The notes below the pieces were generated by a model. That model was not told the origin of the DNA. It made no database searches and worked only from the letters and a program-made list of their open reading frames with translations. Shown in pieces: positions 1-11,765 of a stretch of 11,765 nt of DNA. The position numbers were made by a program, and so were the translations under genes. Source of the DNA: Rhodoferax sp. (GTDB lineage: Bacteria > Pseudomonadota > Gammaproteobacteria > Burkholderiales > Burkholderiaceae_C); assembly GCA_018882485.1 (NCBI GenBank), contig VERU01000040.1:1-11765 (forward strand). Reading direction: 5' to 3'. The number at the start of each line of letters is the position of its first letter. Positions within the stretch are counted from its first letter, which is position 1.

Positions 1-76
1 GTGCGGAGCCTGGACCGTGGTCGTGCGGGATACCCGGACCCACGAGCTCCACCCTGCCGGGGACACGCATGGATGA
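1..76 (+). CDS. soxD: Sarcosine oxidase delta subunit, C-terminal end (partial)
   Basis: Only the last 24 codons lie in the window (reading frame starting at base 2, stop TGA at 74-76). They read CGAWTVVVRDTRTHEL then a short tail. This matches the family's C-terminal pattern, in which a zinc-ligand Cys is followed by a W/F-rich strand and RDT-x-T-x-E. The first visible Cys would be that last zinc ligand; the other ligands are off the edge. SoxD is the small zinc subunit of heterotetrameric sarcosine oxidase (alpha-beta-gamma-delta). The stop overlaps the soxA start by 8 bp (ATGGATGA), matching the usual soxB-soxD-soxA-soxG order. The call rests on a short stretch plus the neighbours. Confidence 0.72.
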   Translation, partial: CGAWTVVVRDTRTHELHPAGDTHG

Positions 77-3029
77 CCGGTTGCGCCTGCCGGCCGGAGG
101 GCTCATCCAACGCGACAAGCCCATCACCTTTCGGTTCAACAACCGCGACTACCAGGGCTTCGAAGGCGACACCCTGGCCTCGGCACTGCTGGCCGCCGGA
201 GTCCGCCTGACGGCCCGCAGCTTCAAGTTCCACCGTCCACGGGGCGTCACATCGGCCGGTGTTGACGAGCCATCATCCATCGTGGAACTGCTCGGCCCCG
301 AGCAATCCGGCAATCACCCGATCACGCAGGTCGCTCTGCGCCACGGCCTGGTTGCACGCTCGGTCAATTGCTGGCCCAGCGCGAACTTTGACCTGATGTC
401 CGTGAACCAGTGGTTCTCGAGACTGCTGCCCGCAGCGTTCTATTACAAGACATTCATGTGGCCCAACTGGCACCTGTGGGAGCCAGGTATCCGCCGCCTG
501 GCCGGACTGGCCCGGGCACCCGCGGTCGCCCCTACAGCGGGTAGTTATGAAACCCGCTACGGGCATTGTGATGTGCTGGTGGTAGGGGCCGGGCCGGCGG
601 GATTGATGGCTGCACGGGTCGCTGCGCGTGCCGGATGCAGGGTGATGCTGGTCGATGACGGCGCGCAGCCAGGGGGGCGGTTGCTGGATCACCGAAGTCA
701 AATCGACGGGATCGCAGGGCAGGACTGGGTGGCCCGTGTGGTCGCGGAACTGGACTCCGTCCTGAAGGTTCGACGCCTGCAGTCGACCAGCGTCTGGGCC
801 TATCGGGAAGGCAATCTTCTCATCATGACCCAGCGTCACCCCGAGAGAGCGGGACTGGTTCAGCGAACCTGGCGCGTTCGGGCTCAACAGGTGGTCCTCG
901 CCACCGGCGCCAACGAGCGGCCTCTGGTCTTCCCGGACAACGATCGGCCCGGCATCATGCTGGCGTCGGCAGCGCAAGCCTATCTTCATCGGTATGCGGT
1001 GCGGCCCGGACGGCGCGCTGTGGTCTTCACGAACAACAGCAGCGCCTACGAAGTCGCTGCCGACCTGTCGGCCGCGGGTGTCCGTGTGATGCCCATTGTG
1101 GACGCCAGAACGCAGATACCGACCGATGCGCTGGAGCGAGTACCCGGCATCGAAGTCCTTGCGGGACACATCGTGGATGGAACCCGGGGTTATCGCCAGC
1201 TCGGCGCCGTTCGAGTCAGCGCGCGGGAGTCCTCGCCATCCCAATCGGGGCATCGCTGGCTGGAGTGCGATCTGTTGGCCGTTTCAGGTGGATGGAACCC
1301 AGTGGTTCACCTGTATTCACAGTCTCGCGGCGAATTGCGCTACGAAGATGGGTTGGCGGCCCTGGCACCCGGCAAGCCGGCACAACCCGTCGTGTGCGCC
1401 GGCGCAGCGTCCGGCGTCCTGGATCTGTCCGATGTGCTGGCCGATGGTGCGATCCGTGGACGCATGGCTGCAGAACGCTGCGGCCGTGACCCAGCCGAGG
1501 GTGCGCCGATCGTTCCCCACGCCGATGCCGGGCTCCGATGGGACATCCAGGCGGTCTGGAGTGTCGACACCTGCAAACCGGGCGACAAGGCCTTCGTCGA
1601 TCTCCAGCACGACGTCACGGTAGATGATCTTCACTTGGCAGTCCGTGAAGGATATGCTGCTGCCGAACACGCCAAACGCTACACCACTGCGGGAATGGGT
1701 TTCGATCAGGGTAAGACAGGGCACCTGAATGTGGCTGGAATCCTGGCCCAGGCTCGACAGCTTCCCGTGCAGGAAGTGGGTACGACGACCATGAGATCCC
1801 CCTACGTACCGATCGACTTCGGAGCACTGGTCGGCGCTCGGGGTGCCAGCGTTTTCCTGCCCTATCGTCACACACCCATCACACCCTGGAACCTGGCGCA
1901 TGGCGCGGTGATGTTCGAAGCGGGTGCCCGCTGGCGCAGACCCGGTTACTACCCCAGACAGGGAGAAGGCCTGCCACAAGCCCTGCAACGCGAATGCATG
2001 ACGGTCCGAAACCAGGTTGCGGTCTACGACGGTTCGCCTCTAGGCAAGTTCGAGATCCGGGGGGCGGATGCACTACGGCTGACCGAGATGCTCTACACCA
2101 CAAGCCAGGCTAGTTTGAAAGACGGCCAGGGTCGGTATGGACTGATGCTGACGGACGACGGCCTGGTACTCGACGACGGCGTTTGTTTCAGGCTCTCCGA
2201 GAACCATTACCTGCTGTCCACCTCGACCGCCAATGCGGACGAGGTCTACCGCCACATTGAGCACTTCCTGCAAGTCGAACGCCCCCTGTGGAAAGTGCAG
2301 GTCACTCCCGTCACCGCCGCCTGGGCCAATGTAACGGTCTGCGGTCCCGACGCCCGCCGGTTGCTGGGCAAATTGGCAACCGATCTGGACCTGTCCAATC
2401 AAGGGTTTCCGTTCATGGGCCTGCGCATCGGCCACATCGCGGGCATTCCGGTTCGCGTCGCCCGCGTGAGCTTTACCGGCGAACTCAGTTTTGAGATCAA
2501 CGCCCCTGCCTCACGGGGCCTGGAACTCTGGGAAACGCTGCTTGAAGTTGGCGCCTCGATGGGCATCTGCCCCGTTGGGTCGGAGGCCAACCATGTTCTC
2601 AGGGTCGAGAAGGGATTTCTATCGCTGGGCCATGAGGTCGACGGTACAGCAGACCCCCACGACTTGGGCATGGCCTGGGCCATGTCGCAGGCCAAGCCCG
2701 ATTTCCTAGGTAAACGGGCCGTCGAAATCCGTCGCTCATCGGGCAGGGTCAGGCGCGAATTGGTCGGACTTCTGACCGATGACCCAGCCCGTCTGGTCAT
2801 TGAAGGCGCTCCGCTGACCCCGGGTGGGCGGCGCGAGGCGTCGGAAGGATTCGTCAGCGCCTGCGTGCACAGTCCGGTTATGGCGCGTAGCGTGGCACTG
2901 GGTTTGTTGTCGAACGGCAGAGCCCGCCACGGCGAGAAAGTCTACATCCGCATGAAGAACGAGATCGTCCCTGCCACCGTGACGAGCCCCTGTTTCTACG
3001 ATCCCTCGGGACACAGGATGCGTTCATGA
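69..3029 (+). CDS. soxA: Sarcosine oxidase alpha subunit (heterotetrameric, folate-binding)
   Basis: This 986-aa protein has the usual length and layout of the large subunit of cytoplasmic heterotetrameric sarcosine oxidase, which oxidises sarcosine or related N-methyl amino acids and passes the one-carbon unit to tetrahydrofolate. Residues about 10-95 form the cysteine-free ferredoxin-like N-domain (GDTLASALLAAGV, RSFKFHRPRG). A dinucleotide-binding Rossmann motif GAGPAG lies at 173-178 with acidic D196/D197 ending the next strand. A second nucleotide-binding region follows at about 317-327 (VVFTNNSSAY). The typical linker KRYTTAGMGFDQGKT comes next. From about residue 585 to the end is the GcvT-like aminomethyltransferase/folate domain. 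The ATG at 69 overlaps the soxD stop, and the TGA at 3027-3029 overlaps the soxG start as ATGA, so expression is probably translationally coupled. In known complexes the covalent flavin is on SoxB, which is not in the window. The true substrate could be another N-methyl amino acid. Confidence 0.93.
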   Translation: MDDRLRLPAGGLIQRDKPITFRFNNRDYQGFEGDTLASALLAAGVRLTARSFKFHRPRGVTSAGVDEPSSIVELLGPEQSGNHPITQVALRHGLVARSVNCWPSANFDLMSVNQWFSRLLPAAFYYKTFMWPNWHLWEPGIRRLAGLARAPAVAPTAGSYETRYGHCDVLVVGAGPAGLMAARVAARAGCRVMLVDDGAQPGGRLLDHRSQIDGIAGQDWVARVVAELDSVLKVRRLQSTSVWAYREGNLLIMTQRHPERAGLVQRTWRVRAQQVVLATGANERPLVFPDNDRPGIMLASAAQAYLHRYAVRPGRRAVVFTNNSSAYEVAADLSAAGVRVMPIVDARTQIPTDALERVPGIEVLAGHIVDGTRGYRQLGAVRVSARESSPSQSGHRWLECDLLAVSGGWNPVVHLYSQSRGELRYEDGLAALAPGKPAQPVVCAGAASGVLDLSDVLADGAIRGRMAAERCGRDPAEGAPIVPHADAGLRWDIQAVWSVDTCKPGDKAFVDLQHDVTVDDLHLAVREGYAAAEHAKRYTTAGMGFDQGKTGHLNVAGILAQARQLPVQEVGTTTMRSPYVPIDFGALVGARGASVFLPYRHTPITPWNLAHGAVMFEAGARWRRPGYYPRQGEGLPQALQRECMTVRNQVAVYDGSPLGKFEIRGADALRLTEMLYTTSQASLKDGQGRYGLMLTDDGLVLDDGVCFRLSENHYLLSTSTANADEVYRHIEHFLQVERPLWKVQVTPVTAAWANVTVCGPDARRLLGKLATDLDLSNQGFPFMGLRIGHIAGIPVRVARVSFTGELSFEINAPASRGLELWETLLEVGASMGICPVGSEANHVLRVEKGFLSLGHEVDGTADPHDLGMAWAMSQAKPDFLGKRAVEIRRSSGRVRRELVGLLTDDPARLVIEGAPLTPGGRREASEGFVSACVHSPVMARSVALGLLSNGRARHGEKVYIRMKNEIVPATVTSPCFYDPSGHRMRS

Positions 3030-3553
3030 ATCGCCAGAGGACCTCTTGCCGATACGCCTGCGAGGTGGGGCGCATGCCCTCACCCGCATTGCTGGACATC
3101 AAGGGCGCTGGCCCTGAGATAGCTGGCCGCTTGGCAGAACTCGGATTGGTCATCCCCCAGAGGTCGCGGTTCAGCACGGCCGGTGACCTGCATCTGGTGC
3201 TCCCAAGGGCAACCCATGGGCTGTTGCGAGCGCCGCTTGCCCGTCGGACCGAATTGCTCGAAAGGTTGAACCGTCCCCCGACCGGACCCGATACGCTCAT
3301 CATCGACCTGACCGAGGCCTGGGCCTGGTTTTCCATTCAAGGTCCCGAGTCAAACGAAGTGATGGCCGTGATTTGCCCCCTGGATCTAGACCCATCGTCG
3401 ATGGCGGTCGATGGAGCCACCTTTACCGAAGTCGTCGGAATCAAAGCCTTGCTGTGGCGTATGGGAAATGGCTTTGAATGGGCAGTTGAGCGCAGCCACG
3501 CCCACTGGATGGCCGATTGGCTGGCCCGTGTGCAATCGCCCGACGCCCATTAG
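3026..3553 (+). CDS. soxG: Sarcosine oxidase gamma subunit
   Basis: This 175-aa protein begins at an ATG that overlaps the soxA stop by 4 bp (ATGA). The first 60 or so residues are poorly conserved. The C-terminal part carries the family's recognisable features: IDLTEAWAWFSIQGPES, then CPLDLDP, then a strand-rich segment ending ALLWRMGNGFEWAVERSHA. In known complexes the gamma subunit is a small GcvT-like fold that packs on alpha and beta. The family is poorly conserved, so gene order and the GP...CPLDL...LWR pattern carry the call. It is a little short for the family from memory, but not obviously truncated. It is the last gene before a 220-bp gap. Confidence 0.85.
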   Translation: MNRQRTSCRYACEVGRMPSPALLDIKGAGPEIAGRLAELGLVIPQRSRFSTAGDLHLVLPRATHGLLRAPLARRTELLERLNRPPTGPDTLIIDLTEAWAWFSIQGPESNEVMAVICPLDLDPSSMAVDGATFTEVVGIKALLWRMGNGFEWAVERSHAHWMADWLARVQSPDAH

Positions 3554-3565
3554 CACCAGTGGGCG
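3544..3565 (+). other. Stem-loop spanning the soxG stop codon
   Basis: CGCCCATT and AGTGGGCG flank a 6-nt loop (AGCACC), giving an 8-bp stem with one G-T wobble; six pairs (CGCCCA/TGGGCG) are perfect. The soxG stop codon (3551-3553) sits at the inner stem and loop. No U-tract follows (ATTGAAAACCG), so it is a poor intrinsic terminator. It may instead block 3'-to-5' mRNA decay and stabilise the sox message. That role is inferred only from the fold. Confidence 0.4.
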
Positions 3566-3700
3566 ATTGAAAACCGCTTTGTTAATGACAGGGTTAGGCC
3601 TGACCGGCATCGGTGCTGCGCAGTCCTATGCTGGCTCGGTATATGCATGTTTCAGTTCAGTATTTAGGGAATCCGGTTCCCATCCCTACAATGAACCAGA

Positions 3701-3714
3701 CGGGGACCACCCCG
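3701..3714 (+). other. Small GC-rich hairpin CGGGG-ACCA-CCCCG
   Basis: Perfect 5-bp arms with a 4-nt loop, in the leader of the binding-protein gene and about 60 bp before its start. There is no T-run after it, so terminator function is unlikely. It may be part of a structured leader together with the repeat that follows. The arms are short enough to occur by chance in such G+C-rich DNA. Confidence 0.3.
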
Positions 3715-3720
3715 CATCGG

Positions 3721-3739
3721 ACCTGTGCAGGGAACAGGT
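3721..3739. promoter_or_regulatory. Inverted repeat ACCTGT-N7-ACAGGT, possible operator or leader hairpin
   Basis: The two 6-bp arms are perfect reverse complements with a 7-nt spacer, centred about 44 bp upstream of the binding-protein start codon. The symmetry and position would suit a dimeric regulator's operator or an mRNA hairpin. No regulator gene is present to pair with it, and the family of any binder cannot be named. Confidence 0.33.
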
Positions 3740-3763
3740 GTTTGGCACCCTCTTGAACTTTTT

Positions 3764-3767
3764 GGAG
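3764..3767 (+). promoter_or_regulatory. Ribosome binding site of the binding-protein gene
   Basis: GGAG lies 6 nt before the ATG at 3774 (TTTTTGGAGTGACTGATG). It is the clearest Shine-Dalgarno sequence in the forward block and fixes the start of the binding protein just ahead of a good signal peptide. Strong initiation here fits the need for excess binding protein over permease. Confidence 0.75.
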
Positions 3768-3773
3768 TGACTG

Positions 3774-4583
3774 ATGAATCGATTCAAACGCATGCTGGGC
3801 ATCGCTGCGATGCTGGTAACGGCCCTGGTCTGGGTACAGCCCGCCAGTGCACAACAGGACAATCTGGTCGATCAAATCAAGAAACGCGGCAAGCTCCAGG
3901 TGGGCTTTTCAAGCTTCGTTCCCTGGGCCATGCGCGACAAGCAGGGCCAGTGGGTGGGCTTCGAGGTTGACGTGGCTACCAAATTGGCCAAGGATCTCGG
4001 CGTGCAACTGGAACTGATGCCCACGGCCTGGGACGGCATCATCCCGTCCCTGATCTCCAGCAAATTCGATGTGATCATCGGGGGCATGTCGGTAACGCCC
4101 GCGCGGCTGGAACAGATCGACTTCACAGAAGCCTACTCGACCTCGGGACAAGGTGTCGCGGCTTCCAAAAAGCTGGCTGCCAAGTTGAAATGGCCTGAGG
4201 AGTACAACAACTCCAATGTCACTTTCACCTGCCGGCGTGGAGCCACACCTTGCAAGTTGATCGAAGAAAAATGGCCAAAGGCCAACCTGCGTCAGTTCGA
4301 TGACGACGCCATCGCGTTCCAGGAGGTCATCAATGGAAATGCCCACGCCACCATCTCGTCCGAACCCAAACCCACGTTCTTCGCCCTGAAGAACCCGGAC
4401 ACCTTGTTCAAGCCGACCCAGGAAAAGCTCGCAGGGTCTTATGAGGGATTTGGGGTGCGCAAGGGAAACAAGGCAGCCCTGGCCACCTTCAATGAATGGA
4501 TCGCCAAAAACAAGGATTTCCTGGCTGCCCGCCACAAGTACTGGTTCGGCTCCCAGGAGTGGACTGCGCTGGTTCCGTCCTGA
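3774..4583 (+). CDS. Polar amino acid ABC transporter, periplasmic substrate-binding protein
   Basis: This 269-aa protein starts with a classic Sec signal peptide: MNRFKR basic end, hydrophobic core at residues 8-21, and AXA cleavage site ASA|QQ after residue 26. The mature part is a family-3 solute-binding protein (SBP_bac_3): the start KKRGKLQVGF, GFEVDVATKLAKDLG, then TAWDGIIPSLISSKFDVIIGGMSVTPAR (R111 is the usual ligand carboxylate contact) and FTEAYSTSGQG. It captures an amino-acid-like ligand in the periplasm and delivers it to the permease encoded 6 bp downstream. An unusual pair, C153 and C160 (CRRGATPC), lies in lobe 2 and could form a disulfide. The ligand cannot be read from sequence; context favours a zwitterionic N-methylated or acylated compound. 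Confidence 0.92.
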   Translation: MNRFKRMLGIAAMLVTALVWVQPASAQQDNLVDQIKKRGKLQVGFSSFVPWAMRDKQGQWVGFEVDVATKLAKDLGVQLELMPTAWDGIIPSLISSKFDVIIGGMSVTPARLEQIDFTEAYSTSGQGVAASKKLAAKLKWPEEYNNSNVTFTCRRGATPCKLIEEKWPKANLRQFDDDAIAFQEVINGNAHATISSEPKPTFFALKNPDTLFKPTQEKLAGSYEGFGVRKGNKAALATFNEWIAKNKDFLAARHKYWFGSQEWTALVPS

Positions 4584-4589
4584 CCCTGA

Positions 4590-5513
4590 ATGGAGCAGGC
4601 CGCTGATCTTCAGGTCGGTCGTCCGCGCCGCAAGACGCGGACCCGGTCATGGCGTTGGCTGGATACGGTGCTGCTGGCCTTGGTGCTGGGCGCCGTGGGC
4701 TTTTTCGCCTGGAAGACCAATGTGGTGTTCAACTACCGTTGGGACTGGAGCACGGTCTGGCCGTTCGTGTTCCGGTTCGATGCGCCCTCGGACCGGTGGG
4801 TACCCAACATCCTCGTCGAAGGATTCCTCACGACCGTCCGGCTGGCGGTATGGGGCATCCTGATATCCGGAATCATAGGCACGCTGATGGGGCTGGCGCG
4901 GAACAGCCGAAGACTGTTCCTGAGGCTGCTCAGCAGCGCTTATGTGATGTTGATTCGGAATATCCCGCCGGTCGTCTTTGTCTTCGTTTTCGTTTTTTTT
5001 ATCGCCAGCCAGATCATGCCGAAACTGGCGGTCACCGGCATGGTGTCGGAGCTTTCGGGAACGGCGCAGTGGTGGATTGCGTTCTTTTTTGGCACACCCA
5101 AACTCCTCGACAACTTCCTGCTGGGCCTGATTTGCCTTTCCGTGTTCTCGGGAGCCTATGTCACGGAGATCGTGCGTGCCGGCATCGAGTCGGTACCCCG
5201 TGCCCAGATCGAAGCCGGTCAGAGCCTGGGAATGTCGCCATTCAACATCGCGCGGGATATCGTGTTGCCACAGGCCCTGCGCAACGTGCTGCCCCCCATG
5301 GCGGGGCAATTCATCCAGTTGATCAAGGACTCGTCCCTGGTTTCACTGGTCTCCATCCAGGAGCTGTCGTTCATGGCACAGGACGTACAGGTAACCACGC
5401 AGCGTGTGTTTGAGGTCTTTCTGTTCGTGGGCGGTGTCTACTTTGTCATCTGCTTCACCCTGGCACGCCTGTTCGGCAGGCTGGAACGGCGCAACCAGAC
5501 CTCCGACCGCTGA
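4590..5513 (+). CDS. Polar amino acid ABC transporter permease
   Basis: This 307-aa inner-membrane protein of the His/Glu/Gln/Arg permease family has a basic cytoplasmic N-terminus (RPRRKTRTR), a first membrane helix at about residues 24-42, and several more. The EAA loop that docks the ATPase is clear: EIVRAGIESVPRAQIEAGQSLGMS, ending LPQALRNVLPPM. The end LFGRLERR is typical. Between the first helices is a long periplasmic insert (VVFNYRWDWSTVWP...) as in the larger GltK-type permeases. The start ATG follows the binding-protein stop by 6 bp but has no strong Shine-Dalgarno, so translation is probably coupled. It is the only permease in this forward transporter, so it may work as a homodimer. 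An 8-T run at 4993-5000 lies within a V/F-repeat helix. Confidence 0.92.
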   Translation: MEQAADLQVGRPRRKTRTRSWRWLDTVLLALVLGAVGFFAWKTNVVFNYRWDWSTVWPFVFRFDAPSDRWVPNILVEGFLTTVRLAVWGILISGIIGTLMGLARNSRRLFLRLLSSAYVMLIRNIPPVVFVFVFVFFIASQIMPKLAVTGMVSELSGTAQWWIAFFFGTPKLLDNFLLGLICLSVFSGAYVTEIVRAGIESVPRAQIEAGQSLGMSPFNIARDIVLPQALRNVLPPMAGQFIQLIKDSSLVSLVSIQELSFMAQDVQVTTQRVFEVFLFVGGVYFVICFTLARLFGRLERRNQTSDR

Positions 5514-5581
5514 GCGGCCGATCCGAAGCCTGTGTGGACGCCTGAGTCCCTTCATTGATTCGACCTTTACTGAACAAGGCC

Positions 5582-6325
5582 ATGTCCCAGAAGAACATCA
5601 TTGAAATCAGGAACCTGCACAAATGGTTTGGCAACGTGCACGTACTCCGAGGCGTGGACCTGTCGGTGCGCTCAGGGGAGAAAGTGGTGGTGTGCGGCCC
5701 GTCCGGCTCGGGCAAGTCAACCCTGATTCGATGCATCAACCGGCTGGAGGTCCACGACCAGGGCTCCATCGTCATCGATGGCATTGAGCTCAGCGATGAC
5801 ACCGAGAACATATCGGCCATACGGCGTGAAGTCGGGATGGTGTTCCAGAGTTTCAACCTGTTTCCGCACCTGAGCGTTCTGGAAAACTGCGCCTTGCCAC
5901 AGATCCGGGCCCGAGGCACAGCCCGCAAGGATGCGGAGGACAAGGCCATGCAGTACCTGCGTCGGGTGAAGATCCCGGAGCAGGCCAACAAGTTTCCTGC
6001 CCAGCTCTCAGGTGGACAGCAGCAGCGGGTGGCCATTGCGCGCTCCCTGTGCATGGAGCCCAAGATCATGTTGTTCGACGAACCGACATCGGCTCTGGAT
6101 CCGGAGATGATCAAGGAAGTATTGGATGTGATGATCGATCTGGCGCAGTCCGGAATGACCATGATTTGCGTCACCCACGAAATGGGCTTTGCGCGCAAGG
6201 TGGCGGACTCGGTGGTGTTCATGGACGGTGGGACCATCGTCGAGCAGGCCCCACCCAACGAGCTGTTCGCCCATCCCCAATCGGAGCGGACCCAGCGGTT
6301 TCTGGGCAACATCCTGGCGCACTGA
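5582..6325 (+). CDS. Polar amino acid ABC transporter ATP-binding protein
   Basis: This 247-aa ATPase of the GlnQ/GltL/HisP type powers the importer. Walker A GPSGSGKS is at residues 39-46, the Q-loop is in [11 protein letters not shown], the signature [15 protein letters not shown] starts at 142, Walker B is [12 protein letters not shown] (D166, E167) and the switch His is in [14 protein letters not shown]. The end follows the usual pattern [23 protein letters not shown] chose the ATG at 5582 (MSQKNIIEI) over an upstream TTG in the same frame because it gives the normal family N-terminus and follows an AAGG motif. A 68-bp spacer with no gene separates it from the permease. It ends 2 bp before the deacylase start, tying that enzyme to the transporter. 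Confidence 0.95.
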
Positions 6326-6327
6326 CC

Positions 6328-7359
6328 ATGGCAGACCGCACCCCGACGGTAGACCGATCGCTCAGCCTGCTGCGTTGCGACATCGATCTGGAAGCACCAG
6401 GCAGGCACCAGGGCTTCCTCCGACTGCCCCACTCTGTCCATCGTTCGGCATATGGCTGGATCCCGATACCCATCGCCAGCATCCGCAACGGCAGCGGGCC
6501 CCGTGTGTTGCTCGTGGCGGGCAACCACGGCGACGAATGGGAAGGGCAAATGGTCCTGGGTGAACTGCTGCGCGAGCTCACGACCTCGCACATTCGAGGG
6601 CAGGTGGTGATCCTCCCCTCGCTGAACTTTCCAGCTGCCCAGGCCGGTTTGCGAACCTCCCCCATCGACGGCGGAAACATGAACCGCGCCTTCCCCGGCG
6701 ACACGCATGGAACCACAACATCACAAATTGCCTGGTGGATCGAGCATGTGTTGCTGCCAGGATTCGACCTGCTGCTGGATCTCCACTCGGGCGGAAGTTC
6801 ACTGACTTACCTGCCTTGTGTGCTGGCATACCGTCAACCCGAGACGAACGAGATGAACCGGCTGCTGGGGCTGGCCCGTGCCTTTGGGGCACCGGTCAGC
6901 TTTTTCTCGGCCACACCCACCAGCCAGGGCCGGACCCTCTCAGCGGCGGCGCTGCGCCAGGGTGTCCTCGGCTTGGCCACCGAAATCGGCGGAGGCGGTC
7001 TGGTGACACCGGCGTCCATGACGCTGATGCGACGAGGGGTTCGGCGCGTACTCCACACGGCGGGACTGCTGCCGGACATTCGACTGGATCCGCCGGATCC
7101 GACTCGGCTCATGCAGGTGGGTGGCGACGACCATCATGTCTACACGATGGAGTCCGGGCTTTTCGAACCTCTGGTCGAAGTCGGAGATCGGGTCGAAGCG
7201 GGACAGCCTGCAGCGCGGATCCATCACCATGCAAGCCCCTGGATCGCTCCGACCGAACTGCGTTTCGCCCTCTCGGGGACCGTGTTGTGCAAACGGGTTC
7301 CCGCAGTCTGCGAGCCAGGCGACTGCCTCTTCCAACTGGGCTCCGATTTTCTGCCCTGA
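6328..7359 (+). CDS. Succinylglutamate desuccinylase/aspartoacylase-family deacylase (DoeB-like)
   Basis: This 343-aa cytoplasmic zinc carboxypeptidase-fold (M14-like) enzyme is expected to remove an acyl group from the nitrogen of an amino acid. The zinc triad is visible: GNHGDEWEG gives H67 and E70, and LDLHSGG gives H153. The probable catalytic Glu is E219 in ATEIGGGG. The C-terminal part (from about residue 270: VYTMESGLFEPLVEVGDRVEAGQ) is the barrel-like end domain found in AstE and DoeB proteins. GNMNRAFPG is another family motif. The closest characterised group by eye is DoeB, which deacetylates N-alpha-acetyl-diaminobutyrate in ectoine breakdown, but no ectoine hydrolase or other doe gene is here. 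The ATG at 6328 follows the ATPase stop by 2 bp; the frame stays open upstream inside the ATPase gene, but that extension is not real. The substrate is unknown. Confidence 0.86.
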   Translation: MADRTPTVDRSLSLLRCDIDLEAPGRHQGFLRLPHSVHRSAYGWIPIPIASIRNGSGPRVLLVAGNHGDEWEGQMVLGELLRELTTSHIRGQVVILPSLNFPAAQAGLRTSPIDGGNMNRAFPGDTHGTTTSQIAWWIEHVLLPGFDLLLDLHSGGSSLTYLPCVLAYRQPETNEMNRLLGLARAFGAPVSFFSATPTSQGRTLSAAALRQGVLGLATEIGGGGLVTPASMTLMRRGVRRVLHTAGLLPDIRLDPPDPTRLMQVGGDDHHVYTMESGLFEPLVEVGDRVEAGQPAARIHHHASPWIAPTELRFALSGTVLCKRVPAVCEPGDCLFQLGSDFLP

Positions 7360-7366
7360 GCCCAGT
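7335..7366 (+). other. Nine-pair stem-loop spanning the deacylase stop codon
   Basis: ACTGGGCTC (7335-7343) and GAGCCCAGT (7358-7366) are perfect reverse complements around a 14-nt loop. The TGA stop at 7357-7359 lies at the loop edge. The following bases (GCGCCACAATTATT) are not a T-tract, so it is at most a weak terminator. It could attenuate or protect the mRNA between the deacylase and the Rieske gene 33 bp further on. The role is inferred. Confidence 0.45.
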
Positions 7367-7398
7367 GCGCCACAATTATTGAAATCCCGACTGCCACC

Positions 7399-8451
7399 AT
7401 GTCCGATTACCTGAGAAACGCCTGGTACGTCGCCGCGCTGTCACGCGACGTCAACCGCCTACCGGTTGCTCGACGCCTGCTGGGCGAACCCCTGGTCCTG
7501 TTTCGCTCCACGGACGGACGGGCGATCGCTCTCGAGGACGCCTGCCCTCATCGCAAGCTGCCGCTCTCCATGGGACGCGTCCAGGGAGATGCCATCGAGT
7601 GTGGATACCACGGCCTGACCTTCGACTGCACCGGACGTTGCATCAATGCGGCAACCCAGGACCGCATACCGCCCTATGCGCAGGTGCGCAGCTACCCGGT
7701 CAGGGACCGCTATGGCCTCACATTCGTCTGGATGGGGGATCCCGCCATGGCCGACGAATCGACCATCCTGGACATCGAACACCACGATGATCCCGCGTGG
7801 ACCATCACGCAGGGTGACTTCATGCCGGTGCGATGCCACTATCTGTGGCTGGTGGACAACCTGCTGGATCCCTCGCACGTCGCCTGGGTCCACACCACCT
7901 CGTTCGCCGGCGCAGGCACCGATCGCACACCACTGATTGTGGAAGATCAATCCAGTGGCGTGCTATGCAGCCGATGGATGCTGGACCAGCCCCCGCCGCC
8001 CTTTTATGCCCCCCTGGTGCGCTTCGCGGGAAACGCCGATCGGCTGCAGCATTACGAGATGCGCTACCCATCGGTTGGCATCAACAAAGGGATCTACACA
8101 CCGGCGGGTTTGGGAGGCCCCGGGATGCAGGACGGCCCCCTGACCTACCGCATGGCGTCCTACCACTTCATCACGCCCGTCGACGACGACAACACGTTGT
8201 ACTTTTGGTTGCAGCACCGCAATACCGACATCCACGACCAGGAACTCACCCGGCGCATTGCGGCCGGCGCGAGAGCCGCCTTCGAGGAAGACCGTGCGAT
8301 CCTGGAGGCGGTCCACCTCGGCATGAAGAACAGCACCACACGATCCACGGGCTTGCTGCTGGACGCAGGGGCCAACCGGTTCCGCAAGGGACTTTCCGAG
8401 CGGATTGCGCGTGAGCGGGCAATCCATCAGGCCGGGTCGGCCTCCTTGTAA
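7399..8451 (+). CDS. Rieske [2Fe-2S] non-heme iron oxygenase, vanillate O-demethylase-like
   Basis: This 350-aa oxygenase component has an N-terminal Rieske domain (LRNAWYVAALS; cluster ligands C49, H51, C68 and H71 in CPH...CGYHG) and a C-terminal catalytic domain. The mononuclear iron ligands are probably H160 and H165 in NLLDPSHVAWVH, with D157 as the bridging acid, and D298 in FEEDRAILE. Length and motifs fit the VanA/dicamba/caffeine-demethylase branch, which O- or N-demethylates or hydroxylates small rings. It needs a ferredoxin-reductase partner, and none is in the window. It starts 39 bp after the deacylase with no clear Shine-Dalgarno. Its last 25 bp overlap the convergent AhpD-like gene. 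The sarcosine oxidase upstream makes an N-methyl substrate attractive, but this is inference. Confidence 0.9.
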   Translation: MSDYLRNAWYVAALSRDVNRLPVARRLLGEPLVLFRSTDGRAIALEDACPHRKLPLSMGRVQGDAIECGYHGLTFDCTGRCINAATQDRIPPYAQVRSYPVRDRYGLTFVWMGDPAMADESTILDIEHHDDPAWTITQGDFMPVRCHYLWLVDNLLDPSHVAWVHTTSFAGAGTDRTPLIVEDQSSGVLCSRWMLDQPPPPFYAPLVRFAGNADRLQHYEMRYPSVGINKGIYTPAGLGGPGMQDGPLTYRMASYHFITPVDDDNTLYFWLQHRNTDIHDQELTRRIAAGARAAFEEDRAILEAVHLGMKNSTTRSTGLLLDAGANRFRKGLSERIARERAIHQAGSASL

Positions 8452-9014
8452 TAGCCGATGACGTCGCCCTCGGTGGTGACACCCAGACCGTTAAGCAGGC
8501 GATTGGAATAGTTGAAGTAGGCACACACCTGATTCACCTCCAGGATCTCCCCGTCATTGGCTCCGGCCGCTCGCAAAGCCTCGTAGTCCGCACGAACCAT
8601 GTCACCCACATGGGCGGTGAGCTTGCGCGCGTAGCGCAGCAGTTCCAGTTCCTTGCCTGAAAAAACCTGTTCGGGTTGAGCCTGTTGCAGGGCATTCCAG
8701 ATGGCATCCGATCGGGCTTTGTCGTTGAGCAGGCGTCTGGCATTGGTGAAATGGTGCGTCAGGCTGTAATCACACCGGTTGGTCATGCTGACATAGGACG
8801 CAACCACTTCCAGGAACCAGAAAGGAAGGGTGTTGTCGGGGTTGTGCAAGACGTTCTTGTACAACACCAGATGCCCCTCCATGCTGTGCGGCCGCAGGCT
8901 GTGGGCCCGCATCACGTTGTCCACCGTGCCATGGGGTGTGGTCACCCGCTGGTACATCTCCTTGAGTTTGCCGGTGGCCTCCGACAGGGGAATCATTCGA
9001 ATCCAGGCGCTCAT
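8427..9014 (-). CDS. Carboxymuconolactone decarboxylase/AhpD-like peroxidase-related protein (CxxS)
   Basis: This 195-aa protein reads as a member of the AhpD-like, peroxidase-related group of the carboxymuconolactone decarboxylase superfamily, all-helical cytoplasmic proteins that often use a CxxC pair and a His relay. The core motif is at residues 69-88: E69, then SMTNRCDYSLTHH. C81 is kept, but the second Cys is serine (S84), so a normal dithiol peroxidase cycle looks impossible; H87/H88 remain. It is the last gene of the reverse block. Its start overlaps the HD gene's stop (ATGA), with a good AAGGAG ribosome site. Its stop lies inside the Rieske gene. Possible roles are a decarboxylase, isomerase or single-Cys peroxidase partner of the HD protein. 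Confidence 0.82.
   Translation of the reverse strand: MSAWIRMIPLSEATGKLKEMYQRVTTPHGTVDNVMRAHSLRPHSMEGHLVLYKNVLHNPDNTLPFWFLEVVASYVSMTNRCDYSLTHHFTNARRLLNDKARSDAIWNALQQAQPEQVFSGKELELLRYARKLTAHVGDMVRADYEALRAAGANDGEILEVNQVCAYFNYSNRLLNGLGVTTEGDVIGYYKEADPA
8429..8443. other. Small hairpin inside the convergent gene overlap
   Basis: AGGCC-GGGTC-GGCCT is a perfect 5-bp, all-but-one G/C stem with a 5-nt loop, centred in the 25 bp shared by the ends of the Rieske and AhpD-like genes. It is symmetric, so it forms on transcripts from both strands. T-rich tails are lacking, so bidirectional termination is only a possibility. Confidence 0.3.
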
Positions 9015-9637
9015 GGGGTCTCCTTTTCGATGGACCTGCGGTCCTGAGGTGCGCGTGCAAAGATCCTGCGGACCATGGGCACAAAGGTCTCCAGGGGCTC
9101 GCAGGGGTAATCGGGATCGGATGCCGCCTGGTCATACCGGGCGACAAACTCGGCGGTCCAGTCGAAATGGGGATGTCCCCGCCAACGCTCACGCTCGTGG
9201 GGATTTCCCCCCGGCAGATTGGGCGAATGCAGGTTTTGAAATGTGGCGTGGTGCCGCAACATCCAGTGGTTGCGCTCCGACACGTAAGCCCCCAGCAAGG
9301 CGGCTGCAAAATCACCGTGCATCAGCGGACAGGTGATGAAGCCGACGTCGTGCAGCAGGGCAACCACCACGTCTTCTTCTTCCAGACCATCCCGCAGGGC
9401 CATGGTTGCCGACTGCAGGCAATGCCGGTAGTTGTTCACCATGTAGCCAAACGTCGGATCGTGTTCACTGCCCTTGAGCAAACGCAGGACCTGGTCAGCT
9501 TGGAGTTCCGCCATGTACTGCCTGCGCTGTGCGTTCATCACGCCCCAGTCCGAGGCGGAGAAAGACTCGAGTGAACGCTTCTCGATGTAATGCCAGTCGC
9601 CATGGGCCAGCGCGTCGTAGTGCTTGGTCTGCTGCAT
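9011..9637 (-). CDS. HD-domain protein, probable PhnZ/TmpB/MIOX-like diiron oxygenase
   Basis: This 208-aa protein shows the HD-domain metal pattern: H72 in YRHCLQSATMA, H96-D97 in ALLHDVGF, H107 in LMHGDF, H129/H130 in MLRHHATFQN, and D169 in ARYDQAA. The H-x-L-Q-x-A segment before the HD pair and the six-ligand pattern match HD-domain mixed-valence diiron oxygenases such as PhnZ and TmpB, which cleave C-P bonds of hydroxyphosphonates, and the related inositol oxygenase, better than HD phosphohydrolases. The loop between the HD pair and the next His is short (10 residues versus about 21 remembered for PhnZ). A phosphonate role has no other support here: no phn gene is seen. It starts 6 bp after the GST stop without a clear ribosome site and overlaps the AhpD-like gene by 4 bp. 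HD assignment is firm; oxygenase activity is inferred. Confidence 0.78.
   Translation of the reverse strand: MQQTKHYDALAHGDWHYIEKRSLESFSASDWGVMNAQRRQYMAELQADQVLRLLKGSEHDPTFGYMVNNYRHCLQSATMALRDGLEEEDVVVALLHDVGFITCPLMHGDFAAALLGAYVSERNHWMLRHHATFQNLHSPNLPGGNPHERERWRGHPHFDWTAEFVARYDQAASDPDYPCEPLETFVPMVRRIFARAPQDRRSIEKETP
9020..9025 (-). promoter_or_regulatory. Ribosome binding site of the AhpD-like gene
   Basis: On the reverse strand AAGGAG lies 5 nt before the ATG at 9014, inside the end of the HD gene. It supports that start and suggests the AhpD-like protein is made well even though its gene is last in the block. Confidence 0.7.
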
Positions 9638-9643
9638 GTGTGT

Positions 9644-10279
9644 TCAGGAAGTCAACCAGTGATCCGTTGCTTTTTGCCAGGACGCCAGCGCCCGGTGAAC
9701 CCGGGGATCCTGCCAACCCTCGGCCAGCCAGGCGTCGAGTCCGGTGGGAACATCCAGCGACTGGCTCCAACGGGCCAGAATCCGCTGCGCCAAGGGCAGG
9801 GTCACCAAGGGTCCGCAGTCGGCCAGCGTGATCCGATCGCCTGCCAGCCACGGCGAAGGCCTGCAAAAGCCCGCGAGTTGCTGAAGCCGATGTTCGATGG
9901 TCCCACGCAAACGCTGCAACGTGGCTCCGTCCAGAGCTGGATCCCGCACCCTTGGAAACAGGGCCCTCACCGCGGGCTCCAGATAGAGATCATGGAAACG
10001 GGCCAAAAACCGCACGCGAGCCCGCTCATGGAAACCGGCAGGCAACATGGGCGGATCGGCGTAGCGTTCCTCCAGGTACTCGTTGATCGCCTCCGACTCC
10101 GACAGCACCCAGTCGCCCTCCTGAATGGCCGGCAGAGTTCCCATGGGAACCAGAGCGCGGTAACACTCCGATCGGTAGCCACCCGGCGGCTCCCTTTCCT
10201 CAAAATCAACGCCCTTGATACACAAAACCAGCCGCACCTTGGCGCTGTAACTGGACAGGGCCGTGGCATGGAAAATCAC
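9644..10279 (-). CDS. Glutathione S-transferase (zeta/maleylpyruvate-isomerase-like)
   Basis: This 211-aa cytoplasmic GST has a thioredoxin-like N-domain: MIFHATALSSYSAKVR with candidate catalytic Ser at 9, 10 or 12, the cis-Pro motif VPMGTLPAI (P50), and the glutathione gamma-glutamyl site LSESEAINEYLEE (S60-S62). The helical C-domain has the LAGDRITLADCG capping motif. The SS-x-x-x-x-VR motif resembles zeta-class enzymes (SSCxWRVR), which isomerise cis double bonds in ring-cleavage products, but the zeta Cys is Tyr here, so class is uncertain. The start is a GTG at 10279 that overlaps the amidohydrolase stop as GTGA; this gives the normal family N-terminus, while the longer frame upstream only shadows the neighbouring gene. 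It may handle a reactive intermediate. Confidence 0.85.
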   Translation of the reverse strand: MIFHATALSSYSAKVRLVLCIKGVDFEEREPPGGYRSECYRALVPMGTLPAIQEGDWVLSESEAINEYLEERYADPPMLPAGFHERARVRFLARFHDLYLEPAVRALFPRVRDPALDGATLQRLRGTIEHRLQQLAGFCRPSPWLAGDRITLADCGPLVTLPLAQRILARWSQSLDVPTGLDAWLAEGWQDPRVHRALASWQKATDHWLTS

Positions 10280-11052
10280 GCGAGCGGCTCCGTCAGGAAA
10301 TCCTGATAGTCCGCGATCATCGCCTCGGCAGCGGCAGCAACCAGTTCCATCCCCTGCTCTGCCGTGCCCAGAGCAGAATGCGAACCAACCCGACCATCCG
10401 GAAAGTGCGCCCTGTGCAGCGCGGAGTCCGGGTGGTTGTCTCCCGCATGGAGCCGCATGAAAGCGGGCGCCAGCGGAGCCGCAGGCGCAAGTCCGTCTGG
10501 GGGGAGACATCCTGGCAACACATGGCGCGTGATGGCGATCTCGGAGGGCGTGGCATGCAGTCCTTCGCCGCTGCCGTACCAGACCGATCGCAACCGATTG
10601 ACAGACTCGAAATCCCACCAGCTTCGCAGCCGGCAACGAATAGGTGGCAGGCGCCGGCCCGCGATACCCCGCTGCGCATACAGTTCCTGAAACGCGCACA
10701 TCGCCGGGGCGACATTGCCGCCATGCCCGTTGAGCAGGTAGAAATGGGTAAAGCCCTGACAGGCCAGTGATTCGATGTAGTCCACCAGCAGCGCGATCAG
10801 GGTGGTCGGCCGAAGTGAAACGGTCCCGGGAAAACCCAGATTGAACTGTGCCTGGCTCAAGGTCACCGTCGGTCCGATCAGAGCCGACGATGTCCGGCTG
10901 AACGCATGGGCAATGGACTCGGCCGTGATGCTGTCGGTGCCGATCAGGCCCTGGGGGCCGTGCTGTTCGGTGGATCCGGTCGGAATCACCACACCCTGGG
11001 AACGACGCAGATAGGCTTCCACCTCGGGCCATGTGCTGCGATGCAAGATCAT
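10276..11052 (-). CDS. Creatininase-family amidohydrolase
   Basis: This 258-aa protein has the metal-binding motifs of the creatininase family, cytoplasmic hydrolases of cyclic or linear amides: PTGSTEQHGPQGLIGTD (E29, H31, D40), LLNGHGGN (H110), GLHATPSEIA (H166, E171) and DGRVGSHSALGTAEQG near the end. In Pseudomonas creatininase, as I recall, the fourth motif is NGHYEN, whose Glu is a metal ligand; here it is NGHGGN, as in formamidase-like and other members, so creatinine is not an assured substrate. I use the ATG at 11052 rather than a TTG three codons upstream. It lies 13 bp after the permease stop and overlaps the GST start by 4 bp. Linkage to a sarcosine oxidase makes an N-methyl lactam or amide plausible. 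Confidence 0.85.
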   Translation of the reverse strand: MILHRSTWPEVEAYLRRSQGVVIPTGSTEQHGPQGLIGTDSITAESIAHAFSRTSSALIGPTVTLSQAQFNLGFPGTVSLRPTTLIALLVDYIESLACQGFTHFYLLNGHGGNVAPAMCAFQELYAQRGIAGRRLPPIRCRLRSWWDFESVNRLRSVWYGSGEGLHATPSEIAITRHVLPGCLPPDGLAPAAPLAPAFMRLHAGDNHPDSALHRAHFPDGRVGSHSALGTAEQGMELVAAAAEAMIADYQDFLTEPLA

Positions 11053-11065
11053 GGCCAGCAACCAG

Positions 11066-11765
11066 TCAGCGCGAAGGGGACAGGCGGCGCTCCAGACGTC
11101 GCACCAGCCACGACACGAAAAGAATGAGCACCAGATACTCGGCCACCAGCACGGTGTAAACCTCCAGCGGCCTGTACTCCGTCACGTTCAGCTCATTGGC
11201 CTTGCGGGTCAGCTCCTCCAGGCCGATGACCGAAATCAGCGACGACATCTTGAGCACGTAAACGAACTGATTGCCCATCGCTGGCAGGATGACCTTGATG
11301 GCCTGCGGCATCACGATGAACCGCATTTGCTGCGCCCAGCTCAGACCCAGACTGCGCGCCGCCTCGATCTGCCCCCTGGGAACCGACTGGATGCCGGCGC
11401 GAAACACCTCGGCTTCGAAGGCGCTGTCGCTGATGGCCAGGCACAGCATCCCGGCAACGAACACGCTCAATTGCAGGCCGATCAACACCGGCAGGCCGTA
11501 GAAGATCCACAACAGCAGCACCAGCAGGGGAATGGCCCTGAACACTTCCACATAGGCCCGCGATGCCAGGCGCAGCACACGCCCTCCTGCGAGCCCGGCC
11601 AGAGCCACCGAGGCGCCCAACACCACCGACAACAGGATCGCGAGAACCGATACCGACAGGGTGTTGAGCACCCCGCCCATCAGAAACCGGAGATTAGCCG
11701 CACCCTTGTCCTGCACGGGGTTGAAGATGTACCAACCCCAGGTGTAGGACGAGCCCTGGGCCCCC
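11066..11765 (-). CDS. Second polar amino acid ABC transporter permease (5' end cut by window)
   Basis: The frame is open to the window edge. About 232 residues are visible, and the reading continues upstream of the first internal GTG (11716) as YTWGWYIFNPVQDKG, so the true start is outside. It is an inner-membrane permease of the His/Glu/Gln family, with a helix at LMGGVLNTLSVSVLAILLSVVLG, several more, and the ATPase-docking EAA loop EVFRAGIQSVPRGQIEAARSLGLS followed by MPQAIKVILPAMGNQFV. The end, LVRRLERRLSPSR, is typical. It differs clearly from the forward permease, so this locus has two importers. Other components of this one are expected off the right edge. Confidence 0.92.
   Translation of the reverse strand, partial: GAQGSSYTWGWYIFNPVQDKGAANLRFLMGGVLNTLSVSVLAILLSVVLGASVALAGLAGGRVLRLASRAYVEVFRAIPLLVLLLWIFYGLPVLIGLQLSVFVAGMLCLAISDSAFEAEVFRAGIQSVPRGQIEAARSLGLSWAQQMRFIVMPQAIKVILPAMGNQFVYVLKMSSLISVIGLEELTRKANELNVTEYRPLEVYTVLVAEYLVLILFVSWLVRRLERRLSPSR

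Follow-up and report, generated by a model that had tools for sequence, protein, structure and literature searches.

The DNA analyzed here, which we call the window, is a whole contig (C483; 11,765 nucleotides, nt) of a 3.2-Mb metagenome-assembled genome (MAG; 86% complete) of Rhodoferax sp., and its 12 genes fill it as two convergent (tail-to-tail) operons. The plus strand carries, in this order, soxA and soxG of a sarcosine-oxidase type enzyme (Sox), the substrate-binding protein (SBP1), permease and ATPase of an ATP-binding cassette (ABC) importer (importer 1), a deacylase and a Rieske oxygenase (block 1). On the minus strand stand, from left to right, an AhpD-like protein (AhpD), an HD-domain protein (HD), a glutathione S-transferase (GST), a creatininase-family amidohydrolase and a permease (perm2) of a second importer (block 2).

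We conclude that these genes form a real, recurring catabolic set, hereafter the module, built around a new branch of putative HD diiron oxygenases and undescribed within the literature searched, for which a substrate class can be proposed with moderate confidence. On balance, the window probably encodes most of one aerobic pathway degrading an imported N-methylated compound of the histidine type, i.e., N-methylhistidine or a member of the histidine betaine/ergothioneine class. The observations at hand are the gene families, their recurring co-occurrence, the fold and ligands of HD, the near-complementary occurrence of the Rieske and a 2-oxoglutarate (2OG) oxygenase and the linkage to histidine utilization (hut) genes; we infer the substrate, the order of the reactions and the roles of HD, AhpD, GST and the creatininase-family protein.

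Recurrence of the gene set and exchange of its enzymes

One pattern-based scan of genome contigs returned 52 HD loci, belonging to Comamonadaceae, Rhodoferax, other betaproteobacteria, alphaproteobacteria, deltaproteobacterial/SAR324 MAGs, Leekyejoonella and one Chloroflexi MAG. Counts given below refer to these loci plus the window (53 in total), many of which are truncated by the end of their contig (5 kb of flank is available on each side in 29), and those of partner genes rest on tblastn with identity limits of our choice, because callers of open reading frames (ORFs) gave antisense ORFs or missed genes in low-GC loci. HD and AhpD are adjacent in 36 of the 45 loci whose flanks measure 1 kb or more on each side. 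Among the 53 loci, the creatininase-family gene and perm2 are each found in 35, the substrate-binding protein of importer 2 (SBP2) in 32, GST in 29, the importer-1 ATPase in 24 and the 2OG oxygenase in 21, followed by SoxA (14), SoxB (13), the Rieske oxygenase (9), the importer-1 SBP (8) and the deacylase (7). The conservation which the earlier note had proposed to look for in genomes is thus observed, albeit incompletely, among beta- and alphaproteobacteria as well as a SAR324-class group. Nine loci have no adjacent AhpD (L026, L052, L055-L058, L061, L066 and L071): in L066 it lies 2.6 kb from HD, and the genomes containing L026, L055 and L057 have it elsewhere, together with further block genes, on a stretch retrieved through Rieske or 2OG. 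In Chloroflexi (L061 and L117), HD is unaccompanied by the other module genes. Counting the centre genomes, HD is found in 4/399 genomes of the family (E ≤ 1e-60), in 11/385 of the class of L054 and 11/52 of the class of L065 (both E ≤ 1e-45), and in 1/246 and 2/177 of the classes of L060 and L061, respectively (E ≤ 1e-40). Four of the 11 HD genes in the class of L054 (43-50% identity) have different surroundings (L113-L116), and Sox is found at a distance of 4-6 kb from one of them.

That the two blocks form one set, as had been suggested, is supported by adjacency and shared genome distribution. Importer 1 stands directly upstream of HD-AhpD in L067-L070, both blocks are side by side in L023 and both are present, on different contigs, in G104; moreover, AhpD accompanies block-1 genes in G104, G125 and G127, with HD on another contig. 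A Rieske orthologue (at least 65% identical to the Rieske protein of L123) occurs in 5/399 family genomes, including all four with HD, a near-identical distribution, and in the fifth (G1173) AhpD adjoins the Rieske gene at a contig edge; a sixth family genome has a 51% Rieske relative in another context (L141). These facts speak against two separate pathways sharing one neighborhood, one for an N-methyl amino acid (Sox, importer 1, deacylase and Rieske) and one based on HD, which we regard as quite unlikely despite three points in its favor: soxA and the deacylase appear in only 14 and 7 of the 53 loci, L028 and L030 have only the Rieske gene after AhpD, and Ruegeria and Paracoccus plasmids carry Sox, importer 1, Rieske and AhpD with no HD in the stretch. 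The independent scattering of genes that the earlier note had named as refuting one pathway is observed in part, Sox, the deacylase and importer 1 being often non-adjacent. As a separate observation, the genome of L021 contains a Rieske match with one in-frame stop (L148, G100:C143:4322-5350), either a pseudogene or an assembly error.

Across lineages, a 2OG oxygenase largely takes the place of the Rieske enzyme, the two occurring in a near-complementary manner. Indeed, among 41 carrier genomes, 17 have a window-type Rieske protein (at least 61% identical to that of L123), 18 a 2OG oxygenase (at least 49% to that of L054), none both and six neither (Fisher p 7e-7 under an independence of the genomes that does not hold; the limits were set after the gap was seen).

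On Rhodobacteraceae plasmids, HD itself seems to be replaced by an unnamed protein of ~360 amino acids (aa), a possible functional stand-in, which occurs with AhpD in Leisingera, Ruegeria and Paracoccus and whose gene adjoins AhpD and Rieske (L215:10750-11853; L216:6894-7997; L211:10695-11768; L212:8127-9212; L213:8109-9194). This family is present in 12 plasmid records (E ≤ 1e-30), the nine at 47% identity or more all being among the 14 AhpD records (E ≤ 1e-40); a Rieske gene lies within ~1.2 kb in six of the seven plasmid clusters viewed, the seventh (L220) being cut by the record start, and the five of these Rieske proteins that were compared by sequence are 52-58% identical. HD was not found in five plasmid stretches searched, and the loci retrieved through HD and its partners gave no member of the 360-aa family. 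Scans of two members against Pfam and NCBIfam were negative (E ≤ 0.01); the protein has a conserved pattern, HSWHxGIHPGC...HFHTCG, which is reminiscent of M29/NicX-like metalloenzymes. In L211-L213 it is accompanied by soxBDAG (SoxA 54-57%) and an importer-1-type ABC set, in L211 and L212 also by RidA and a deacylase (37-39%), and the R. conchae cluster has in addition HisC and a two-subunit decarboxylase.

Other genes recur beside the module. A HisC-like aminotransferase gene adjoins it in L208 (6060-8271), L207, L212, L108, L111 and L112, accompanied by a two-subunit thiamine pyrophosphate decarboxylase in L208, L207, L212 and L108; scans were below NCBIfam cut-offs in L208 and, for HisC only, in L212, the latter being also annotated and the others recognized by eye or similarity. 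A fatty-acid-desaturase-like hydroxylase is encoded in L022 (13565-14524; a weak match to the arginine hydroxylase GntB), L054 (7654-8640), L067-L070, L120, L121, L212 and L213, and RidA-family proteins, which would fit imine intermediates, in L066, L109, L111, L112, L211 and L212 (by eye or annotated). In Leekyejoonella (L060:12305-14950), an OsmC-like gene (by eye) and a gene of the monomeric N-methyl amino-acid oxidase type (250.6 bits, cut-off 257) follow HD-AhpD-2OG, and no SoxBDAG match was found in this stretch.

Linkage to histidine utilization and candidate substrates

Genes of the module adjoin hut genes in about seven lineages. In L123 and L124, located upstream of L047 and L038, respectively, a hutC-...-hutI-hutG-hutF-Rieske-hutH operon converges on soxGADB, beyond which lie the genes for SBP2, perm2, ATPase, creatininase, GST, HD and AhpD. 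The Rieske proteins of these operons are 66% (L123) and 64% (L124) identical to that of the window, and HutC, I, G, F and H of L123 as well as HutF and H of L124 score above NCBIfam cut-offs; parts of the same arrangement are seen at contig edges in L040 (cut hutH) and L206 (Rieske, hutC and Sox). L054 shows the row GbcA-like Rieske-HD-AhpD-2OG-creatininase-hutU-hutH, with hutI, F, C and G and soxBDAG alongside, and in L062-L064 hutF is divergent to HD, L062 having also a hutC-like gene (32%, by similarity). L207, from the genome of L055, reads importer 1-AhpD-Sox-2OG-...-deacylase-...-hutU. Among the plasmids, found through AhpD or Rieske, Leisingera M658 (L215) has creatininase-SBP2-ATPase-perm2-Rieske-360-aa protein-AhpD with hutU-G-H-I ~6 kb on, the visible part of the Leisingera NJS201 record (L220) contains AhpD, the 360-aa protein and hutU-H-I, and Mameliella alba (L219) has two HutD, HisC, LysR, a Rieske protein (53%), a 2Fe-2S protein, hutU and hutG. 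By chance, hut linkage in 5/20 lineages within 40 kb of 3.5 Mb would have p ~3e-6, and in 3/15 lineages p ~6e-4, taking lineages as independent, with their number estimated and the plasmid cases found through AhpD or Rieske left out. Finally, hutH scores above the curated cut-off in 25/41 carriers, including the genome of the window itself (G000:C344).

In L201, from the genome of L026, the order is hutF (cut by the contig start; 384.7, cut-off 413)-AhpD-2OG-importer 1-deacylase-Rieske-ornithine-cyclodeaminase (OCD)-family protein, plus a HutH homologue without the 4-methylideneimidazole-5-one (MIO) tripeptide. The best solved relative of the latter is ergothionase (6s7j, 270.4 bits; HutH chains 267), and the MIO site is shortened in both; in PMC13405746, ergothionase is described as lacking MIO. 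MIO-less HutH homologues, which by their sequences are possible new amine lyases, are found beside OCD-family genes in L201 (8480-11108), L127, L130 and L133, with G104, G109 (two), G103 and G102 as carriers.

In the proposed route, amino-acid-type ABC importers would bring the compound in and the Rieske oxygenase (elsewhere the 2OG oxygenase) would hydroxylate or demethylate it, after which HD and its AhpD-like partner might oxidatively cleave a bond, in the manner of PhnZ and TmpB, which follow a hydroxylase. The fragments would be finished by the amidohydrolases and GST, the imidazole part would enter Hut towards glutamate, and a SoxBDAG-type enzyme would move the N-methyl group to folate, acting on N-alpha-methylhistidine ahead of Hut or, once Hut is passed, on N-methylglutamate from ring-methylated histidine. 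The substrate is probably N-methylated, since a Rieske or 2OG oxygenase and a Sox-type enzyme are present (in L060, a gene of the N-methyl amino-acid oxidase type). The earlier view of a single pathway for an imported N-methyl compound is supported, and its final N-methyl removal by a Sox-type enzyme is plausible; the homarine, trigonelline or lactam substrate that it had envisaged is not supported, and a histidine derivative fits better, because the genome neighbors (Rieske in hut operons, the L054 row and the plasmid relatives) point to histidine. In the open-access literature, no fitting report of a known pathway with this set, of a Rieske gene in a hut operon or of hercynine catabolism was found among the matches listed.

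Several observations weigh against this proposal. Sox is near HD in only 14/53 loci, and the distribution of HD is patchy, with 73-77% orthologues in 5/59 other genomes of the genus. Regarding the Rieske/2OG exchange, 4/41 genomes have both proteins at a 41% limit, and L031 and L201 carry both in the module; the Leisingera M658 and Mameliella stretches are without an HD match. In the window clade (L021-L031), no hut gene was seen beside HD over stretches of at most 10 kb, L205 combines Rieske and Sox with no hut gene in 19 kb, five of the seven Rhodobacteraceae plasmid clusters viewed (L211-L213, L216 and L221) show no hut, and hutH (E ≤ 1e-60) was not found in 11/41 carriers, a count that misses fragments such as the cut hutH of L040 and for which completeness is known for G000 only. 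The tryptophan-binding relative of SBP1 would fit an aromatic amino acid, not histidine in particular, and a simple demethylation would need no HD, AhpD, GST or creatininase-family protein.

A more specific version would have ring-N-methylhistidine (from actin, or in the form of anserine) as substrate, with the Rieske or 2OG oxygenase as ring N-demethylase feeding HutH and the creatininase-family protein or deacylase as dipeptidase/deacylase: in L123 the Rieske gene and hutH share 4 nt, and demethylation of ring substituents is known from VanA/DdmC-type relatives (the solved ones include dicamba demethylase and NdmA), but no role would be left for HD, AhpD and GST, and we hold this version to be doubtful. 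We keep the ergothioneine class as a bold reading because HD-AhpD would perform an oxidative cleavage beyond ordinary demethylation. A tentative and rather improbable form of it is an aerobic, ergothionase-independent route returning ergothioneine or hercynine to histidine, in which Rieske/2OG and Sox would strip N-methyl groups, the HD branch (in Rhodobacteraceae, the 360-aa protein) and its CxxS AhpD-like partner would take off the substituent that is left (the C2 sulfur in the case of ergothioneine), and Hut would follow. It is also unlikely, in our judgment, that the one pathway serves a non-histidine N-methylated heterocycle or betaine (homarine/trigonelline type or tryptophan betaine), hut being incidental and the Sox-like enzyme possibly an N-methylglutamate dehydrogenase (Mgd), whose subunits are Sox homologues. 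Rieske, GST and a Sox-type enzyme would generally suit such a substrate, the nearest solved relative of SBP1 binds L-tryptophan, the set occurs in Ruegeria and Leisingera, and Mgd is cited in PMC13390433 as taking part in homarine catabolism; against it, module genes are linked to hut in about seven lineages, with Rieske genes lying within hut operons among them. The recurring genomic context makes the substrate of the HD branch testable, and parts of the set are present in named strains: Leisingera sp. M658 and NJS201, Ruegeria sp. THAF33 and Paracoccus seriniphilus DSM 14827 (HD not seen in the stretches searched), and the HD carriers Comamonadaceae G21597-S1 (L031), Falsiroseomonas algicola PeD5 (L066) and Leekyejoonella antrihumi (L060). 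Should the link to histidine prove right, N-methylated histidines in lakes and the sea would have a so far unrecognized sink, with a marker set to track it.

The HD branch and the other proteins of the window

HD (9011..9637, minus strand), a putative mixed-valent diiron oxygenase, has a confident predicted structure (predicted local distance difference test, pLDDT, 93) matching the folds of PhnZ, TmpB and myo-inositol oxygenase, and its six iron ligands (H72, H96, D97, H107, H130 and D169) are kept in 30/30 relatives. The YxxE loop of PhnZ and TmpB is absent, the aligned positions 62-65 reading TFGY, and in 30/30 relatives position 62 is never Y and position 65 is Y, F, H or W; a place in the PhnZ/TmpB phosphonate branch was rejected on this basis. 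From sequence and model, HD would therefore represent an uncharacterized new branch of putative diiron HD oxygenases, with 811 homologues at E ≤ 1e-3; three HD-domain oxygenases, MIOX, PhnZ and TmpB, are named in a 2020 review. Plasmid homologues of HD (35-49% identity; six records viewed, two without annotated features in the stretch) are in other contexts and were not taken as orthologues, and a position of HD at the head of a his operon in the Chloroflexi locus L061 (genes recognized by eye) was left unused, as it was not seen in L117.

AhpD (8427..9014, minus) overlaps HD by 4 nt and passes the cut-off of its subfamily (TIGR01926, 96.0 bits, cut-off 81.8); this AhpD/CMD-like protein was rejected as an alkyl-hydroperoxidase, since 43/43 aligned sequences have CxYS, not CxxC. 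The proposed demethylase, a VanA/DdmC-type Rieske oxygenase (7399..8451, plus), matches VanA_C (138.1 bits) and Rieske (76.6 bits), its solved relatives include dicamba demethylase (155 bits) and NdmA, and its motifs CPHR and CGYHG are preserved in nine aligned sequences. The Rieske and AhpD genes overlap tail-to-tail by 25 nt (8427-8451), between the two operons.

The two convergent blocks and the families announced for them were borne out by ORFs and profile scans; the family calls were right, but the names DoeB, MaiA, creatininase and SoxG fell below curated cut-offs and SoxA just below. The SoxA-like large subunit of the heterotetrameric sarcosine-oxidase type (69..3029, plus; frame read from base 3, the contig starting just upstream), with 2Fe-2S, FAD and folate-binding GcvT features (GCV_T, SO_alpha_A3), reaches 1136.4 bits for NCBIfam TIGR01372 (cut-off 1164) and 656 bits with SoxA of PDB 1vrq. 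The divergent SoxG-like small subunit (3026..3553, plus), overlapping soxA by 4 nt, misses the heterotetrameric sarcosine oxidase cut-off (TIGR01375, 38.4 against 143.95 bits). SoxB and SoxD are present in relatives (e.g., L023 and L211), SoxB of L040 scoring 538.5 bits (cut-off 529.45); as the window is a complete contig, any soxB/soxD and SBP2 would lie outside it.

Importer 1 consists of a family 3 SBP1 (3774..4583, plus; SBP_bac_3 107 bits), whose nearest solved relative by sequence search is an L-tryptophan-bound protein (PDB 9e2b, 230 bits) and whose predicted structure was too poor for use (pLDDT 45), a polar amino-acid type permease (4590..5513, plus; BPD_transp_1 81 bits, HEQRo_perm_3TM 55.3, cut-off 42.2) and a GlnQ-like ATPase (5579..6325, plus; scanned from 5555; ABC_tran 133 bits, NF007027 319.8, below the cut-off of 379). 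Both expected importers are present, the second as a single permease cut by the contig end (perm2, 11066..11764, minus; BPD_transp_1 90 bits), which SBP2 adjoins in relatives. The AstE/AspA-family metallo-deacylase (6322..7359, plus; PF24827 132 bits) is DoeB-like and does not reach the DoeB deacetylase cut-off (TIGR02994, 255.3 against 402.7). The creatininase-family amidohydrolase (10276..11061, minus; nearest solved relative 3no4, 218 bits) matches the Pfam Creatininase domain (PF02633, 178.4 bits) and not the creatininase equivalog (TIGR04448, 77.4 against 235). GST (9644..10279, minus; scanned from the alternative start 10303; GST_N_3 58 bits) is separated from HD by 6 nt, and the suggestion that it is of the zeta type was discarded, maiA (TIGR01262) scoring 54 against 171. 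ORFs are tightly packed across the window, overlapping slightly or leaving no more than ~220 nt between them, composition is fairly even (GC 0.58-0.66), and an Rfam scan gave no family at its gathering score.

Comparison with known systems

Complete or partial sets of Hut pathway genes adjoin the module, whose Rieske orthologue lies inside two hut operons, but Hut itself has no HD, AhpD, Sox, creatininase, GST or extra importers. Likeness to the ergothionase pathway, which includes a trimethylamine lyase, comes from the MIO-less HutH homologue of L201, with ergothionase as best solved match; on the other hand, the window has no such homologue, L054 and L207 have true HutU by cut-offs and not thiourocanate hydratase, and the module adds demethylases and HD. 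Homarine catabolism, of which a pathway is reportedly due to Ferrer-Gonzalez in 2026, shares an N-methylated amino-acid-like substrate and the participation of the Sox-type Mgd, and hut linkage would not be expected there. Glycine betaine demethylation, by the Rieske enzyme GbcA and then Sox, follows the same logic of Rieske and SoxBDAG, and GbcA-like Rieske proteins do occur in L054 and L208 (scanned) and in L071 and L118 (by similarity); the window Rieske is of the VanA/DdmC type, unlike GbcA, and the scanned GbcA-like ones score 124.5 and 118.9 against a cut-off of 670.

With the PhnY-PhnZ and TmpA-TmpB pairs of phosphonate catabolism, in which a 2OG hydroxylase precedes an HD diiron oxygenase, the module has in common the HD fold with its six ligands and, in 21/53 loci, a 2OG oxygenase. 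No phosphonate-specific family scores above cut-off in the window, and several features set the module apart: its HD lacks the YxxE loop and frequently has an AhpD partner, its 2OG oxygenase is nearest to the ethylene/succinate-forming enzyme and, in the window, a Rieske oxygenase takes the place of the 2OG enzyme.

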